DNA of 35,121 bases, from IMG/VR virus record IMGVR_UViG_3300044960_000917, positions 1 through 35,121 of that record. One strand, given 5' to 3'. The stretch is from a virus. Below the pieces are notes generated by a model, which saw nothing but the letters and a program-made list of their open reading frames with translations, did not search any database and was not told where the DNA came from. Both the position numbers and the translations under genes were made by a program. Of this stretch, positions 11,832-35,121 are shown one piece after another (within the stretch, counting starts at the first letter, position 1; each line of letters starts with the position of its first letter).

Positions 11832-12161
11832 ATGCCAACGGTCTCGAAAGCGGTCAAGGCCACCACGACGAAGATCACCGAGGAGCGTCTCAAACGGCTG
11901 CGACACCAGAATGCTAAGTTGTCCATCGAGGTGAAGAGGCTGCGCGGCCAGCTGGCGCCGGTGGAAGAGGTCAAGCGTGCGGTCCTCGCTGCGAACACGG
12001 TCGTCAAGCAGCGGTTGCTCGCGCTCCCTTCCAAGCTGGCACTGCAGCTGTCGTTATTGACGAACCCGGCAGAAATCGAGGCGCTGCTCAGGGAGCAACT
12101 CACGGACACTATCAATGAACTCGCCTATGAACAGGAACGGGCAGGGCAAAACGCAGCGTGA
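11832..12161 (+). CDS. Terminase small subunit (putative)
   Basis: A 109-residue protein directly upstream of the large terminase and overlapping it by 47 nt. It has a basic N-terminus, a coiled-coil stretch (EERLKRLRHQNAKLSIEVKRLRGQLAPVEEVKRAV), then VVKQRLLALPSKLALQL and a C-terminal helical part with a LREQL element. This layout, a long helix plus the 'v..rllalP.klA..l' element, is typical of Nu1/TerS-like subunits of lambda-type phages that recognise the packaging site. The usual N-terminal winged helix is reduced or missing, so DNA binding may rely on the basic N-terminus. A GAGGTAAG box precedes the ATG. Confidence 0.75.
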   Translation: MPTVSKAVKATTTKITEERLKRLRHQNAKLSIEVKRLRGQLAPVEEVKRAVLAANTVVKQRLLALPSKLALQLSLLTNPAEIEALLREQLTDTINELAYEQERAGQNAA

Positions 12162-14079
12162 GGTCGCCAGCTGGTATTGGTCGAGTTTGCGTATCCCGAC
12201 CCGTCTCACCGTGACCGAATGGGCTGACCGCTATCGGGTGCTCAGTCGAGAGAGCAGCGCGGAACCCGGGCGCTGGTCTACGGCCCGCACCCCCTATCTG
12301 CGTGGCATTATGGACGCCCTCACCGACCCCCACTATGAGATGGTCATTTGGGTCGCGTCCACCCAAGTGGGGAAGACGGAGTGTGGGTTGAACTTTGTGG
12401 GCTGGATCATGGACCAGGATCCCGGGCCGACGTTGGTCGTCCAGCCGACCCTGGAGTTGGGCCGCGCCTGGTCAAAGGACCGGCTGGCCCCGATGCTGCG
12501 CGACACGCCCCAGCTCGCGGAGAAAATCAGCGGGAAACGCGGTTTACAAGACCTTGACGAGCTGGCGTCCAACGAGCAGCTCCACAAGAGCTTTCCAGGC
12601 GGCCACATCACGATCGTGGGCAGCAACAGCACGAGCGGCTTGGCGGCGCGGCCGATCCGCTACGTCATCGGCGACGAGCTCGATCGCTGGGAGGCCGCGG
12701 CGGGCGACGAGGGCGATCAGATTGAGCTCGTCAGGCGGCGGACCGAAACCTTTTGGAATCGGAAGATCCTCTTTGTCAGTTCGCCAGGCGTCAAAGGGCT
12801 CTCCCGCATCGAACGCTACTATGAGCTGAGTGACCGGCGCCGCTATGAGGTGCCGTGCCCGCGGTGCGTGGCGTCTCAAGTGCTCGCCTGGGACAACCTC
12901 CGCTGGGAGAAGACCAAAACGGGCGCACATCGACCCGAGACCGCGCACTTTGTCTGTGTCTCCTGCCAGCAACGTATTGACGAACGGTGGAAAGCCCAGC
13001 TGCTGGAGGTGGGCCGATGGCGAGCGACCGCCCCGGCTGGCAAAATTGCCGGCTTTCACCTCTGGGCAGCCTACTCGCCCTGGAAAAGCTGGGCTTCGAT
13101 CGTGGAAGACTTCCTCCGCACCCATGCGCACAGAGAACCATTCAAGGTCTTTGTAAACACCGTGCTGGCGCAGACGTGGGAAGAACCCGGCGAAGCCCCG
13201 GAGTGGGAGCTGCTCATGCAACGGGCCGAGCCGCGCCAGCAGTGGATTGTCCCGGACGGGGTCTACTTTCTGACCTGTGGCGTGGACGTGCAGGAGGACC
13301 GGCTGGAGGCCTCCGTCTATGGGTGGGGGGCCGACGAGGAGTGCTGGCTTGTCGGGCACGGGATCTTGTACGGCTCCACAGACAAGGACGAGGTGTACCG
13401 CGCACTGGATCAGCTCTTAGCCACGCCTTGGCCACAGCCGACGCAGCAGCGCACGCTGGTGATTCTCGCGACGGCGATCGACTCAGGGTACAAAACGCAG
13501 GAAGTCTATCGCTATTGCCGCGGGCGCACGAACGTCTTCGCGACAAAAGGGGTCGCGGAACGTACCGCCCCCCCTGTCGGCCGCCCCTCGTTCCAAGACA
13601 TCTCGCACCTCGGCCAGCAGGTGAAACGCGGCGTGCGGTTGTGGCCCCTCGGCACGCATGTGCTCAAGAGCACGCTCTATAGCCGGCTGCGCCTCACCGA
13701 ACCGGGCCCCCGCTTCCTCCATTTTCCTCACGGACTCGATGAGGAATTCTACCAGCAGCTCACGGCCGAAAAGCTGGTCACTCGCTACGTGAAAGGGTTC
13801 CCGGTGCAGGAATGGCAGAAAACCCGAGCGCGGAATGAGGCGCTCGACTGCCTGGTGGAGGCGTATGCCGCCGCCCTCATTGCGGGGATTGAGCGGGTCA
13901 ATTGGGATGCGGCCGCGCGGGCCATGACCCCCTCCGCACCACCGGCACCGCAGCACCCACCCGCTCCCGGGCCGCCGGATCCCCGCGCGGTGGTCCAATT
14001 CGGTCCGCCCACGCTCGGCCGCACACGCCAGATGCGCTCGAGCGGGCACGGGGTGATGAGTGAGCTGCTCAGACGATAA
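12115..14079 (+). CDS. Terminase large subunit, GpA family
   Basis: The packaging ATPase/nuclease that pumps DNA into the prohead. At 654 residues it has normal GpA-family length. The ATPase domain shows Walker A STQVGKTE (82-89) and Walker B YVIGDELD (183-190), with a coupling SSPG motif at about 222-225. A zinc site (CPRC 248-251, CVSC 281-284) is characteristic of the lambda GpA family. The RuvC-like nuclease part has CGVDVQEDRLEA (about 386-397), an AIDSGYKT strand and NEALDC near the C-terminus. The C-terminal tail is Pro-rich. It starts inside the small-subunit gene; a second ATG at 12127 is a possible alternative. GpA-type terminases usually cut at cos or generate defined ends. Confidence 0.96.
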   Translation: MNSPMNRNGQGKTQREVASWYWSSLRIPTRLTVTEWADRYRVLSRESSAEPGRWSTARTPYLRGIMDALTDPHYEMVIWVASTQVGKTECGLNFVGWIMDQDPGPTLVVQPTLELGRAWSKDRLAPMLRDTPQLAEKISGKRGLQDLDELASNEQLHKSFPGGHITIVGSNSTSGLAARPIRYVIGDELDRWEAAAGDEGDQIELVRRRTETFWNRKILFVSSPGVKGLSRIERYYELSDRRRYEVPCPRCVASQVLAWDNLRWEKTKTGAHRPETAHFVCVSCQQRIDERWKAQLLEVGRWRATAPAGKIAGFHLWAAYSPWKSWASIVEDFLRTHAHREPFKVFVNTVLAQTWEEPGEAPEWELLMQRAEPRQQWIVPDGVYFLTCGVDVQEDRLEASVYGWGADEECWLVGHGILYGSTDKDEVYRALDQLLATPWPQPTQQRTLVILATAIDSGYKTQEVYRYCRGRTNVFATKGVAERTAPPVGRPSFQDISHLGQQVKRGVRLWPLGTHVLKSTLYSRLRLTEPGPRFLHFPHGLDEEFYQQLTAEKLVTRYVKGFPVQEWQKTRARNEALDCLVEAYAAALIAGIERVNWDAAARAMTPSAPPAPQHPPAPGPPDPRAVVQFGPPTLGRTRQMRSSGHGVMSELLRR

Positions 14080-30540: not shown

Positions 30541-31634
30541 TGGGCCGTGCACGGATCATCTCTCATCTCGGCGAAGCGCAGTACCAGGTGCGCTACCTCT
30601 ACAACGTCGCGGCGGTTGAGGCGGAGGAACAGCGGCTGGAAGAGCGGGCAGAGGTCATTGAAGCGGAGCTCAGACCCCAGGCCGAGGACGAGCTTGCCGC
30701 GGCAGAGCAAGCACTGAGTGACGCCCGGGCCGCGGTGAATACCGCGATCAGGAAGTACGAGGGACAGCCGACGCCGGAGATGCAGGCAGAGATGGCTGCG
30801 GCCGTCAGTGGCATCGGCACATTACGCACGACACTCGATAGTGTAGAAACCGGCCTGCTCAATGTCAGCGTCTCGGTTGCGACCTCCCGCGCAGCGCTGC
30901 CGGGCGGCGCTCCCCCCTCAGTCATCCAAGCCTACGACAGTTTACAGAACGGTATCACGACCGCACAAAGCGCGCGCAACGACGAGGAGACGTCCGTCGC
31001 GGCACTGCAGGGTACGATCTTGGAGATCAGCAACGCGATCGCCGGCGAGCCGGACATGAGCGGTGTGCGCGCACAGATGGCGACCGCGCTCGATCAACTA
31101 AGCCAGAGCCAAGTCCAACATAGTCAGGCGGGGGCTCGGCTGGCGGACGTAGAGACCTTGCTCGACGCGGCGCGTGATACGCTCCCAAGCGACCCTGCCT
31201 ATGACACGGCACGGGAGCATCTGGAGAGCGCGGCCAGTGCGCTTGCTACGGCACGGGCGTCCCACAGTGGGATGAACTATGGCAGTGTCAGCGCCGCGCT
31301 GGCGACCGCCGACCGTCTCATGCAGCCGGGCAGTGAAACCGCGAGACAAGAACTGATGGCCGCCCTGGCCCAGCAGAATGAAGCGTCTGCGGTTGCCCAA
31401 GAGGCGACCGCCGCACTCAACGAACTGGAGGCAGAGCTGGGGCAGATTGACGCCAGGCTTATCGAGCTGGCGCAGATCGCGCGCGAGGAGACGAAGACCG
31501 TGTGGTGTGCAGACTATTCGACCGAGCTGCAACCCGAGACCGAGGTGGGCACGCTCGAGGTGCCGGGCGAGCTCACCGAGATCCTTGTGCACCCTGACCA
31601 ACCCAACGGCAAACGCCGCGCGATGGGGCGATGA
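30540..31634 (+). CDS. Coiled-coil tail-tip protein
   Basis: A 364-residue protein starting in a TAATG overlap. After MGRARIISHLGEAQYQVRYLYN comes a long coiled coil (about 25-330), rich in Ala, Glu and Gln, with two breaks (about 115-130 and 250-270). The C-terminal domain (VWCADYSTELQPETEVGTLEVPGE) then resembles short ends of other phage baseplate-like proteins. The unusual extended helix suggests a fibrous component or a tip spacer. No catalytic motif is seen. Confidence 0.62.
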   Translation: MGRARIISHLGEAQYQVRYLYNVAAVEAEEQRLEERAEVIEAELRPQAEDELAAAEQALSDARAAVNTAIRKYEGQPTPEMQAEMAAAVSGIGTLRTTLDSVETGLLNVSVSVATSRAALPGGAPPSVIQAYDSLQNGITTAQSARNDEETSVAALQGTILEISNAIAGEPDMSGVRAQMATALDQLSQSQVQHSQAGARLADVETLLDAARDTLPSDPAYDTAREHLESAASALATARASHSGMNYGSVSAALATADRLMQPGSETARQELMAALAQQNEASAVAQEATAALNELEAELGQIDARLIELAQIAREETKTVWCADYSTELQPETEVGTLEVPGELTEILVHPDQPNGKRRAMGR

Positions 31635-33232
31635 CGCCGGTGCAGGCCATGTCCCCAGCGCAGGTCTTTTACAACTGGTGCATGGCACCGGGCTGGCAAC
31701 GCTTTCGACCGACCTTCCGATTTGCCCGGGTCGAAGCGGTGAATGACGATGGGACGCTGAAGCTCGCGTGGCTGCCTCCGAACACCAGCAAATACAGTGA
31801 GCATCGCTCACTCCTGCACGGCGCGCCGCTCGACATCACGCCCAAGACGCTGGACGACGCGGACATTCCGCTCGACAAGGTGCCGGTGACCTACATTGAC
31901 TGCCACGCCGCGGCGTTTGTAGCCGGCGATGAGGTTGTGGTGGAGTTCGAGGCGCAAGACCCCGAGCGCCCGCGGGTCGTCGGCTTCCGCAAGAACCCGC
32001 GGCCCTGTGGCAGTGTGATCGGCACTCCGACTGGCACCGTACAATTCGTTTCAACCCAATGGACCTTCACGCCGAAGACTGTATTGTATGGCGCCGTCAA
32101 CTGGCGGGGCGCCAACAATCAGGTGGTGAGTTGGCACGCCTCCAGCCATCGCGTGTTCAACCGCCTCCGTCCGACGGTACGAGAGGACTCGGGGCAGCTC
32201 AGCGGGCGCATTTATCTCGGTGGACGCCTGGCTGCCGAAGCGCCCGCGGAAATCGTGGGGGCGGCGATTCAACGCCTGGACACCGGGTCGTATTTGGTCG
32301 CGGTGTCCAGCCAGTCCGAGGTCGATGAGTCGTATGAAATGACCGGCGGTAAAGAAGTCGTGTACCGCAAGCTACTTCCTGACGGGCCGTGGGAAGTGGT
32401 CGCGGAGGTCTCCTGGCCGGATGCGTGGTGGCGGCGTCCGTCCGGGGCGGAGTACTATGGCTCGGTGCTCTATGGGCTCTGGCACTTCAACCCGTCAGGC
32501 ACGGAAGCGGTGAGCGTTCGGCAGCTTTTTACGACTTCACCCGGCGGTGGCGATAGTCTGGAGTTGAGGGTTTACCAACTCACCGTCGGCGCGGGCGCAA
32601 CAATCTCAGAGTTTGGGTCTGCCCCGTCCGGCGTGATCGCGGCGGACTATAATAGTGCCGGGAATTTGGTGTTTGCGACCTTTGGCCCAGGACCCACGAT
32701 CCGCCTGCCGAGTTACTCGTTCAGTGTCAACCGCCACTTCTTGGCGTATATGGACCTGCGCTACGAGATTGCCGTGACAGTCGAGTTGACGGCCGGCGCA
32801 GACCCAACAGGAACCGCAACACTCCACACGCCACTGTTCACGGCACCGTTGGTATCCACGTCTCTAGACTCCATTTTTGGTCACGAATTTAACGAGACTA
32901 ACGGCACAGATGATGCGGGACATTTTTTTACGTTTCGCGGCCCCTTTTCTCCGTTAGCGGACGAAGAGGGGGCGTTTCCGAAGTTTCACACGATCTTCCA
33001 GAGCAACGGTGGTCGGATCTTTTTGGACGAGTTCGCGTGGGTGGCGGCCGATCAGAATGGTCACTTTGTGGTCGCGCTGGCGCCCTTCCTGAAGGGCTAC
33101 ACGCAGGCGAATGGTGTCCAGGTTGTCAATGAATATAGCGATCGCCTGATTCGCGGATTCAGTCGCACTGGCGATGTGCGACAAGATATTGCCGGGGCAC
33201 TGTTAAATAATTACCCCATAGGATCGATATGA
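31631..33232 (+). CDS. Large tail-tip / host-contact protein (putative)
   Basis: A 533-residue protein. Residues 1-115 (QVFYNWCMAPGWQRFRPTFRFARVEAVNDDGTLKLAWLPP ... VPVTYIDCHAAAFVAGDEVVVEFEAQDPERPRVVGF) look like an OB-fold-type baseplate or spike domain, in the 'f..g..V.v.f' manner. The C-terminal 400 residues are beta-rich with Trp/Gly-rich strands and no recognised family; they could be a receptor-contacting domain. It is the last large gene before the lysis cassette and overlaps both neighbours. Confidence 0.6.
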   Translation: MTPVQAMSPAQVFYNWCMAPGWQRFRPTFRFARVEAVNDDGTLKLAWLPPNTSKYSEHRSLLHGAPLDITPKTLDDADIPLDKVPVTYIDCHAAAFVAGDEVVVEFEAQDPERPRVVGFRKNPRPCGSVIGTPTGTVQFVSTQWTFTPKTVLYGAVNWRGANNQVVSWHASSHRVFNRLRPTVREDSGQLSGRIYLGGRLAAEAPAEIVGAAIQRLDTGSYLVAVSSQSEVDESYEMTGGKEVVYRKLLPDGPWEVVAEVSWPDAWWRRPSGAEYYGSVLYGLWHFNPSGTEAVSVRQLFTTSPGGGDSLELRVYQLTVGAGATISEFGSAPSGVIAADYNSAGNLVFATFGPGPTIRLPSYSFSVNRHFLAYMDLRYEIAVTVELTAGADPTGTATLHTPLFTAPLVSTSLDSIFGHEFNETNGTDDAGHFFTFRGPFSPLADEEGAFPKFHTIFQSNGGRIFLDEFAWVAADQNGHFVVALAPFLKGYTQANGVQVVNEYSDRLIRGFSRTGDVRQDIAGALLNNYPIGSI

Positions 33233-33549
33233 AGGGGGCGGTGATGGTGTCGGCGTGGGACAGGTTGAAGGTCCGCGGTCCGGATCTCCCGTGGCCGCTG
33301 TCTCTCGCTGTATTCGATGCCGCCGTGAATCTGGGCCTGGTGGAGTCGGGAAAAATACTCCAGGCGCCAGTCAATGCACTCCGCAAAATCTACTCCCCGG
33401 CGCACCCGCTGTACCTCAAGCAGGATGGTATTGTAGGTGACAAAACGGTTGAGGTGGGTGAATCGCGTCGCGAGCCTGATGCAGTTCGCGAGTGTAACAG
33501 TCTAAACGGAGGGGGAAATGGTACCGAACGATCCTCTCCCGAGTTCTGA
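33229..33549 (+). pseudogene. Truncated GH108-like endolysin remnant
   Basis: A 106-residue ORF resembling only the second half of GH108/N-acetylmuramidase-type lysins: DLPWPLSLAVFDAAVNLG (about 19-36), then a PG_binding_3-like QDGIVGDKT (65-73). The N-terminal catalytic part of the family, with its Glu-Gly-Gly motif, is absent. After residue 73 the protein loses family resemblance. The +1 frame continues with VNRVASLMQFASV to a stop at 33503-33505, suggesting a frameshift. It is probably inactive, the active lysin being encoded at 34615. An alternative start is ATG 33244. Confidence 0.6.
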
Positions 33550-33736
33550 CCTGCTCGTCATGCGCCTAGCCGAGATGGGCGTGTGCGCCGTCGCCCTCCT
33601 TGCCGTGCTCCTCATTCATTATTGGTCGCTGCGCGATCTTCGCGGCGAGCTCTACCGCTTGCGCGAAGTGATCGGCCGACTGCCGGTCCGTGCCGAACCG
33701 GATCCGCATCCGCCCAAGGAACAGACGCGAGCGTGA
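33518..33736 (+). CDS. One-TM protein of the lysis cassette
   Basis: A 72-residue protein behind a GGAGGGGG box. A single hydrophobic helix (about 19-38: MGVCAVALLAVLLIHYW) is followed by a charged helix (LRDLRGELYRLREVIGRLP) and a Pro-rich tail. Size, topology and position suggest a holin, pinholin or antiholin accessory; it is not assignable by sequence. It overlaps the endolysin-remnant ORF and precedes the TM-DHp gene by 4 nt. Confidence 0.6.
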   Translation: MVPNDPLPSSDLLVMRLAEMGVCAVALLAVLLIHYWSLRDLRGELYRLREVIGRLPVRAEPDPHPPKEQTRA

Positions 33737-33740
33737 GGGC

Positions 33741-34241
33741 ATGGCAGAAGTGGTCACCTGGCTCTCGGTCATGCTCCGGGCCGGCGCCGTCGCGCTGGCG
33801 TGGGGCTTGCTGCTCCACTATGCGCACCGTCTGTTTCTCCTGCAAGTTGTGCTGTTCGCGGTCCTCTTCTTTCACCAGCTGCTGCTCTCGCCGTTGATTC
33901 CCGGTCCGGATTGGTGGGGGCTGGGGATCAGCATCGGGTTGTTGCTCTGGCTCGTGCAGCTGCAGCGCCTGCTCGAAGACGAACGACAGGTCCGGCGTGA
34001 GCTGCTCCGCGAGCTGGAAGCGCGCGAACAGTGGCTCGCCCAGGCGTACCACACACTGCGCACGCCCACGCACGTGATTATCGGCTTTGTCGAGATGATC
34101 GAGGACCGCGACGTGCTGACCGTAGAAGACCGCGAGTATCTTCGTCGGATCAAACAGGCCGGGCGCGCGCTGGCCGAGGCGATTGACCATCTCCCGGACC
34201 TCAAGAGGAGTGAGCAGCCACCGTGCCAGAGCCAGAAGTAG
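33741..34241 (+). CDS. Membrane-anchored orphan HisKA (DHp) protein
   Basis: A 166-residue protein. Three hydrophobic segments (about 5-26, 31-52 and 58-76) are followed by a coiled-coil-like linker (QLQRLLEDERQVRRELLRELEAREQWLAQ). A histidine-kinase dimerization/phosphoacceptor domain then appears: YHTLRTPTHVIIGFVEMI, with H-box His104 followed by LRTP, and EDREYLRRIKQAGRALAEAIDHLPDL as the second helix. The H-box differs from the classic HELRTP by Glu to Thr. No HATPase domain follows; the protein ends at 166 and the next gene is unrelated. Holin-sized membrane part plus DHp in a lysis cassette is, to my knowledge, unusual. Hypothesis: it heterodimerises with, or is phosphorylated by, a host kinase. 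The start at 33741 avoids overlap with the upstream gene. Confidence 0.75.
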   Translation: MAEVVTWLSVMLRAGAVALAWGLLLHYAHRLFLLQVVLFAVLFFHQLLLSPLIPGPDWWGLGISIGLLLWLVQLQRLLEDERQVRRELLRELEAREQWLAQAYHTLRTPTHVIIGFVEMIEDRDVLTVEDREYLRRIKQAGRALAEAIDHLPDLKRSEQPPCQSQK

Positions 34242-34618
34242 ACGGACAGAGTAAGCTATGGACCACGATCAGTAATCTGAGTGGCCATACCATCGTGGCC
34301 GGCGTGCTGATCTACGTGACCACGTATACCGTGCCGTCGCTCTCGCACGATTTTCGCTCCGTGCTCACCGAGCAACGCCTCGATTTCCTGAAGGCGGTCG
34401 AAAACACCCGCCAGGATTTCTTGAGTGCCATCCGCGACGACCGCGCCTGGAGCACGCAGCAGCACGCTGTGCTCTCCGAGCACCAGCGCGCGCTACAGGA
34501 CGCGTTACACGAGATCACGGCGCAGCTCGCCGAAATCCGCAAGACCCTAGACGAACTACAGCTGCAGAAGGTCCGGGAGCAGTTGCGCCAACGGGAAGAA
34601 GAGGGGGGCAAGTCATGA
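34223..34618 (+). CDS. Spanin-like TM + coiled-coil protein
   Basis: A 131-residue protein from GTG 34223, overlapping the DHp gene by 19 nt; a GAGGAG box lies about 12 nt upstream. One hydrophobic segment (about 20-37: GHTIVAGVLIYVTTYTVP) precedes a long coiled coil (about 45-125: LDFLKAVENTRQDFLSAIRDD ... LQDALHEITAQLAEIRKTLDELQLQKVREQLRQ). N-in membrane anchor plus periplasmic coiled coil is the layout of the inner-membrane spanin (Rz). No embedded Rz1 lipoprotein was found, and the gene precedes rather than follows the lysin. Alternatives are a second holin-like or MCP-like protein. Confidence 0.55.
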   Translation: MPEPEVDGQSKLWTTISNLSGHTIVAGVLIYVTTYTVPSLSHDFRSVLTEQRLDFLKAVENTRQDFLSAIRDDRAWSTQQHAVLSEHQRALQDALHEITAQLAEIRKTLDELQLQKVREQLRQREEEGGKS

Positions 34619-35121
34619 TTCACCCCGAACACCTTCGCCGCTACGTCATCGAACCGACGCTCCAGCGCCTCGGGCTGGACAGCGAGGCGGCGGTCATGTT
34701 GCTACTCGGGACTGCCGCGGTCGAGTCCCGGCTCGGGTTGTGGCTACGCCAGCTCGGCGGCGGGCCGGCGCGCGGCATCTACCAGATGGAACCGGCCACC
34801 CATGACTCGCTGTGGAAAGAATATCTCATCTACCGCACAGACGACTTGGCCGCGCGGATCCGCACGTTCGCCGCGCCGGCGTGCCCGCCCGTCGAGCAGC
34901 TGGAGTGGAACCTGGCCTACGCCACTGCCATGGCACGCGTGCGGTATCTCGTCGCCCCGCCGGCGTTGCCCGCCCCCACTGACTTCTACGGTCAGGCAAA
35001 ATACTGGAAAGAATGGTACCAACGGGGCGGCGAGAAAGGGCGCTCGGAGGGCGATTATGTACGCTGTGTCGATGACCTGATCCTGCAGGTACAGCGGCAG
35101 AGGCGCTACCCAGCGGTGTAA
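34615..35121 (+). CDS. Lysozyme-like endolysin (muramidase/transglycosylase)
   Basis: A 168-residue enzyme of the lysozyme-like superfamily that would hydrolyse peptidoglycan at lysis. The catalytic core reads GTAAVESRLGLWLRQLGGGPARGIYQMEPATHDSLW, with Glu37 as the probable acid. QLGGGPARGIYQMEP is a hallmark of a phage endolysin group that also ends in a 'NL.YA.AMaRvrY......LP...D....A.YWKeyY' segment, seen here as NLAYATAMARVRYL and FYGQAKYWKEWYQRGG. There is no signal peptide, so release would depend on a holin. The ATG overlaps the spanin-like stop (ATGA), and the gene ends exactly at the window's right edge. Confidence 0.88.
   Translation: MIHPEHLRRYVIEPTLQRLGLDSEAAVMLLLGTAAVESRLGLWLRQLGGGPARGIYQMEPATHDSLWKEYLIYRTDDLAARIRTFAAPACPPVEQLEWNLAYATAMARVRYLVAPPALPAPTDFYGQAKYWKEWYQRGGEKGRSEGDYVRCVDDLILQVQRQRRYPAV

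Follow-up and report, generated by a model that had tools for sequence, protein, structure and literature searches.

Bacteria sense their envelope chiefly by two-component signalling, and the known host targets of phages include transcription and proteases. In the HisKA dimerisation/phosphoacceptor (DHp) domain of sensor kinases, the motif H-E/D-x-x-T/N separates two activities: kinase activity requires the E but can do without the T/N, and the reverse is true of phosphatase activity; the acidic residue directly after the histidine (H+1) is required for autophosphorylation in CrdS, HK853, HK1190 and HK4262 (PMC3510030). The isolated DHp of HK853 is reported to have phosphatase activity, which is lowered by mutating the histidine (PMC5727384). 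For EnvZ, one study in mammalian cells saw no apparent phosphatase activity of the DHp by itself, so that it is disputed whether a lone DHp can act as a phosphatase; in the same study, strong phosphatases were obtained when kinase-dead EnvZ was fused to a rigid coiled coil (PMC8971529). DHp-bearing proteins also act on one another: RetS and GacS exemplify kinase-to-kinase control through mixed dimers (PMC12189002), and a ChrS pseudokinase, in which the ATPase domain is broken, pairs with HrrS (PMC9491836). A search of open-access papers returned no phage-encoded orphan DHp. Here, we describe a gene, referred to as the TM-DHp gene, whose product is very probably a membrane-anchored, stand-alone HisKA domain of a temperate phage and, judging from its sequence, a pseudokinase rather than a kinase.

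Results

Genomic setting of the TM-DHp gene

The window, that is, the whole 35,121-nucleotide stretch analyzed, is a viral record of a temperate phage encoding an integrase, a ParB-like protein, a lambda-type terminase and portal, an S49 protease, capsid protein E, and a tape measure. Apart from one shorter contig, this phage has no close relatives in the collection: among the matches listed, no other terminase is more than 46% identical to that of the window. The shorter contig, IMGVR_UViG_3300045136_000296, derives from the same phage, with 100% protein identity over the terminase and a 533-aa gene (window positions 12115–14079 and 31631–33232, respectively), and stops 142 bases past the 533-aa gene, short of the TM-DHp cassette. 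At the right end of the window, five genes follow one another with short gaps and overlaps:

33229–33549, + strand: eroded endolysin gene, in which only the last part of a GH108-type catalytic domain and the start of the binding domain are left (phrog_315 endolysin, E 9e-6; weak partial Glyco_hydro_108 match, E 0.16)
33518–33736, + strand: 72-aa protein with one TM segment by hydropathy and a strong ribosome-binding site, GGAGGGG
33741–34241, + strand: TM-DHp gene, encoding the predicted membrane-anchored orphan DHp protein of 166 aa (ORF listing, HisKA profile, codon composition, shuffle test)
34223–34618, + strand: 131-aa protein with one weak TM candidate and a long coiled coil, overlapping both neighbors (ORF listing, hydropathy)
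34615–35121, + strand: phrog_3108 lysin-like protein with invariant E37-S38 (E 1.5e-34; 12-sequence alignment; annotated relatives)

Annotation and family membership make it well supported that these genes form a lysis cassette, in which one small gene separates the TM-DHp gene from the phrog_3108 lysin-like gene. Alignment of 12 phrog_3108 sequences revealed the invariant Glu-Ser together with GxxQMEPATHD, a pattern that is lysozyme-like on inspection. One relative, in Pantoea phage Nufs112, is an annotated endolysin with Rz/Rz1-like genes nearby, another is annotated as a lytic murein transglycosylase, and in a Vibrio phage an annotated holin lies immediately 5′ of the homolog; a sequence search yielded no relative of the phrog_3108 protein with a solved structure. 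The lysis-gene setting described in an initial annotation of this DNA, made from the sequence alone, is therefore upheld by the eroded endolysin, the small membrane and coiled-coil genes, and the lysin-like gene that surround the TM-DHp gene.

Several further features of the cassette were observed. The family phrog_3108 is listed as of “unknown function” in PHROGs and is a good candidate for formal annotation. The GH108-type endolysin remnant, whose N-terminal catalytic part is missing, adjoins an apparently intact second lysin gene, an arrangement that suggests lysin replacement. The 72-aa protein matched no family in Pfam or PHROGs. In different phages, one-TM/coiled-coil proteins directly 5′ of a phrog_3108 lysin also occur, at L009:4648–5001 and L071:4633–5001; they have no clear sequence similarity to the 131-aa protein of the window and constitute an unnamed companion of this lysin. 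Weak coiled-coil matches of the 131-aa protein to the defense-system profile PD-T4-6 were taken as composition and rejected, and the TM-DHp protein was unmatched by defense-system profiles.

The TM-DHp protein couples a membrane anchor to a HisKA domain

The reading frame reported in the initial annotation, together with the sequence quoted from it, HTLRTPTHVIIGF, is present exactly as claimed. Its GC3 of 0.82 is phage-like, the terminase, portal, capsid, and tape-measure genes ranging from 0.79 to 0.86, and this agreement in codon-position composition with phage structural genes argues against a spurious frame. An upstream GTG start at 33690, which would give a basic N-terminus as in some antiholins, sits within the preceding gene and was rejected as unsupported. 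The 166-aa protein is laid out as two or three hydrophobic helices followed by a coiled coil and the HisKA (DHp) domain:

33759–33815, + strand: candidate TM segment 1, residues 7–25 (hydropathy; AlphaFold2 models residues 2–49 as one helix)
33831–33887, + strand: candidate TM segment 2, residues 31–49 (hydropathy)
33918–33974, + strand: candidate TM segment 3, residues 60–78, continuous with the DHp helix (hydropathy; predicted helix 58–121)
34020–34217, + strand: predicted HisKA/DHp domain, residues 94–159 (PF00512, E 7.6e-10; predicted helices 58–121 and 128–149; DHp folds rank first)
34050–34064, + strand: H-box core H104-T105-L106-R107-T108 (codons read; alignment; motif roles from PMC3510030)

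The protein had been described as having a three-TM region. The membrane anchor itself stands, and three is the likely number of segments: hydropathy gives three peaks, yet AlphaFold2 fuses segments 1 and 2 into one unbroken helix. As read from the sequence, the loop joining segments 1 and 2 carries HYAHR, the second loop has no charges, and RxxRR follows segment 3; these charges fit the positive-inside rule for an N-out/C-in topology with the DHp domain in the cytoplasm.

Pfam HisKA (PF00512) matched over positions 1–65 of its 66 at 39.1 bits against a curated cut-off of 26.9, and matches in PHROGs and NCBIfam were to DHp regions of kinases throughout. A Hidden Markov Model built from viral kinase DHp sequences, with the TM-DHp protein left out, scored it at 40.1 bits, whereas 2,000 shuffled versions reached 7.5 at most; with the same model, no second DHp-like ORF stood out among window ORFs of at least 40 aa. 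AlphaFold2 was run on the single sequence and then with an alignment of 22 locus-derived DHp sequences, the latter giving a mean pLDDT of 89.9; because that alignment included DHp relatives, the model depends on homology and is no separate proof. It shows a long helix at residues 58–121, which spans the last TM segment and the H-box, and a second helix at residues 128–149, with the DHp hairpin modeled at pLDDT 93–97. The top Foldseek rows were kinase DHp structures (ERS1, RetS/GacS, and CpxA), the ERS1 DHp (4mt8) aligning with a TM-score of 0.76 (target length) and a modest E-value of 5e-3. Modest Foldseek E-values are expected with a small helical hairpin. By sequence, the best PDB match was DivL of Caulobacter. 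The HisKA-like domain with a matching second helix that the initial annotation proposed thus finds support in a significant profile match and, as far as the AlphaFold2 monomer goes, in a predicted two-helix hairpin. Its statement that the ATPase domain is missing also holds, as a profile search that was positive in control genomes found no HATPase_c domain in the whole window; a receiver domain was likewise absent from the whole window.

The H-box loses its acidic residue and retains the phosphatase threonine

In the alignment, H104 coincides with the His of every viral kinase used, the H-RTP core and Gly115 are intact, and the H+4 T/N is kept as T108. The acidic H+1 is lost: the phage protein has T105, whereas E occupies this position in each of the 22 viral kinases in the alignment (the search pattern allowed E or T only). 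The PL/MN that usually follows the RTP core in kinases reads PTH. By sequence, this is a double lesion of the kinase, with the acid after the His gone and the ATPase domain missing, in which the phosphatase Thr is intact. The initial annotation had missed the H+1 loss and H+4 retention, which bear on the functions that it put forward. With the acid lost and Thr108 kept, phosphorylation by a host kinase is weakened as a proposal, and mixed dimers that block host signaling, also on its list, stay viable. Dephosphorylation of a host response regulator, absent from that list, fits the retained Thr108 and is favored alongside mixed dimers.

The TM-DHp architecture is known from one sequence

Searches with the whole TM-DHp protein found no relative in viral contigs, no more than ordinary kinases in phage records (even at E 10), weak DHp-only matches in plasmids, and two matches in bacterial species genomes, neither of the same architecture. 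These two were rejected as relatives: L082 is an ordinary kinase of 1,227 aa, and L083 is a frame open by chance on the strand opposite a transport gene. The pattern search of viral contigs requires short exact-like matches, so that distant TM-DHp relatives may go unseen by it. A HisKA search of 100 viral records that are related through their lysin or terminase detected no orphan domain, two complete kinases alone exceeding the cut-off. A DHp-profile/motif scan of viral contigs collected 28 proteins, all of which carry the domain within a longer protein; ATPase-box motifs were recognized by a simple pattern in 27, and the remaining one has 171 further residues. The closest viral HisKA proteins are full-length kinases. 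No short PHROGs family with an H-box was found, the DHp queries matching kinase-length families (468–970 positions); phrog_17184, considered as a short DHp family, gave a brief partial match with the H-box outside it. No recognizable source kinase with the same TM segments was found.

The check for the same architecture elsewhere, suggested with the initial annotation, found no case among viral contigs, phage records, and the genomes of bacterial species. Its view that the combination with lysis genes is undescribed agrees with the collections and open-access papers searched, in which the parts are known singly and their combination was not found; a single sequence that has no relatives limits this claim.

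Two other kinases near phrog_3108 lysins were noted. L006:6078–6824 and L015:6474–7190 encode complete cytoplasmic histidine kinases (HisKA plus HATPase_c), 59% identical to each other. Both lie shortly downstream of a phrog_3108 lysin and a TM protein, at the very border of the viral record, and may belong to the phages or represent one host gene, common to both contigs, next to an attachment site.

Discussion

For the TM-DHp protein, we tentatively favor the reading that it is a pseudokinase, tethered to the membrane, which acts in trans on a two-component pathway of the host; this is a plausible mechanism still short of even odds. The unbroken helix from the last TM segment would place the hairpin of the DHp domain on the cytoplasmic side, where it might dock a host response regulator and strip its phosphate, or might pair with, and stall, a host kinase whose DHp surface matches its own; by either route, a host two-component response, such as that to envelope stress, would be damped during late-gene expression. 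The natural helical lead-in of the protein resembles, by analogy only, the coiled-coil fusions of EnvZ, and the membrane part may double as a holin or derive from one. In its most specific form, in which the pseudokinase is made with the lysis proteins and shuts off a host pathway, perhaps that of envelope stress, before or during lysis through dephosphorylation or mixed dimers, the proposal is doubtful. We infer the partners, direction, and timing of this mechanism; the DHp identity rests on homology. A T108A substitution is expected to abolish the effect if the protein is a phosphatase, and not if it forms mixed dimers.

The main rival is that the protein is a phage holin or antiholin whose membrane part makes the lesion, the DHp domain serving only as a dimerization handle with leftover signaling residues. 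Its three candidate hydrophobic segments, N-out/C-in charges, small size, and position just 5′ of the lysin genes all suit a holin, as does the Vibrio phage in which an annotated holin directly precedes the phrog_3108 homolog, and the cassette has no other clear annotated holin. However, an intact H-RTP core and Gly115 would be superfluous in a mere dimerizer, and the two adjoining one-TM proteins are alternative holin candidates; Pfam, PHROGs, and NCBIfam gave no holin-family match, which is weak evidence because holins are very diverse. On balance, we consider this explanation somewhat unlikely.

Next comes the possibility that the phage recently acquired the 5′ part of a host sensor-kinase gene, which is now decaying as a passenger. 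The absence of relatives from phages, viral contigs, and species genomes fits such an origin, as does the fact that the H+1 acid and the PLN residues have been lost, and the eroded endolysin just upstream marks the region as broken and rearranged. Against decay speak an intact 166-codon frame of phage-like GC3, tight spacing and overlap with neighbors, and a full hairpin that ends cleanly past helix 2, and no kinase sharing these TM segments was recognized as the source; we regard capture and decay as unlikely. Finally, the suggestion that His104 accepts phosphate from a host kinase and passes the host signal state to lysis timing, as in the phosphorelay initially proposed, draws on the conserved His104 and on the position of the gene within the lysis cassette, its sole computed link to lysis timing, but is highly improbable and ranks last because the acidic H+1 required for autophosphorylation in the HisKA kinases tested (PMC3510030) is Thr, and the window encodes no phage receiver domain to take the phosphate.

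If the pseudokinase reading is correct, a kinase-dead, membrane-tethered DHp would give a phage a direct hold on two-component signaling and, in the specific lysis-linked form, represent a new kind of counter-measure. Compared with the DHp domains of GacS, RetS, CpxA, ERS1, and HK853, the phage protein shares the profile, the H-RTP core, the two-helix hairpin, and a coiled-coil/TM lead-in; it differs from sensor-kinase DHp domains in having no HATPase_c, in bearing Thr for the acid after the His, and in its lysis-cassette location. Like the kinase-deficient partners RetS, acting on GacS, and ChrS with a broken ATPase domain, acting on HrrS, it carries a DHp and could work by forming a pair with a second kinase, although those proteins are bacterial and much longer, and the phage protein consists of TM segments and DHp only. 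The Caulobacter pseudokinase DivL shares DHp homology and an altered H-box, but it has Tyr for the His and keeps the acid and an ATPase-like domain, which is the reverse of the phage protein. Class I holins have three hydrophobic segments, the likely number in the phage protein, and resemble it in small size and lysis-cassette position, whereas the phage protein has no holin family match and carries a 70-residue DHp in place of a short charged tail. The L006 and L015 kinases likewise place a HisKA domain beside a phrog_3108 lysin gene; theirs, in contrast, are complete kinases that have no TM segments and lie downstream of the lysin, at the record edge.
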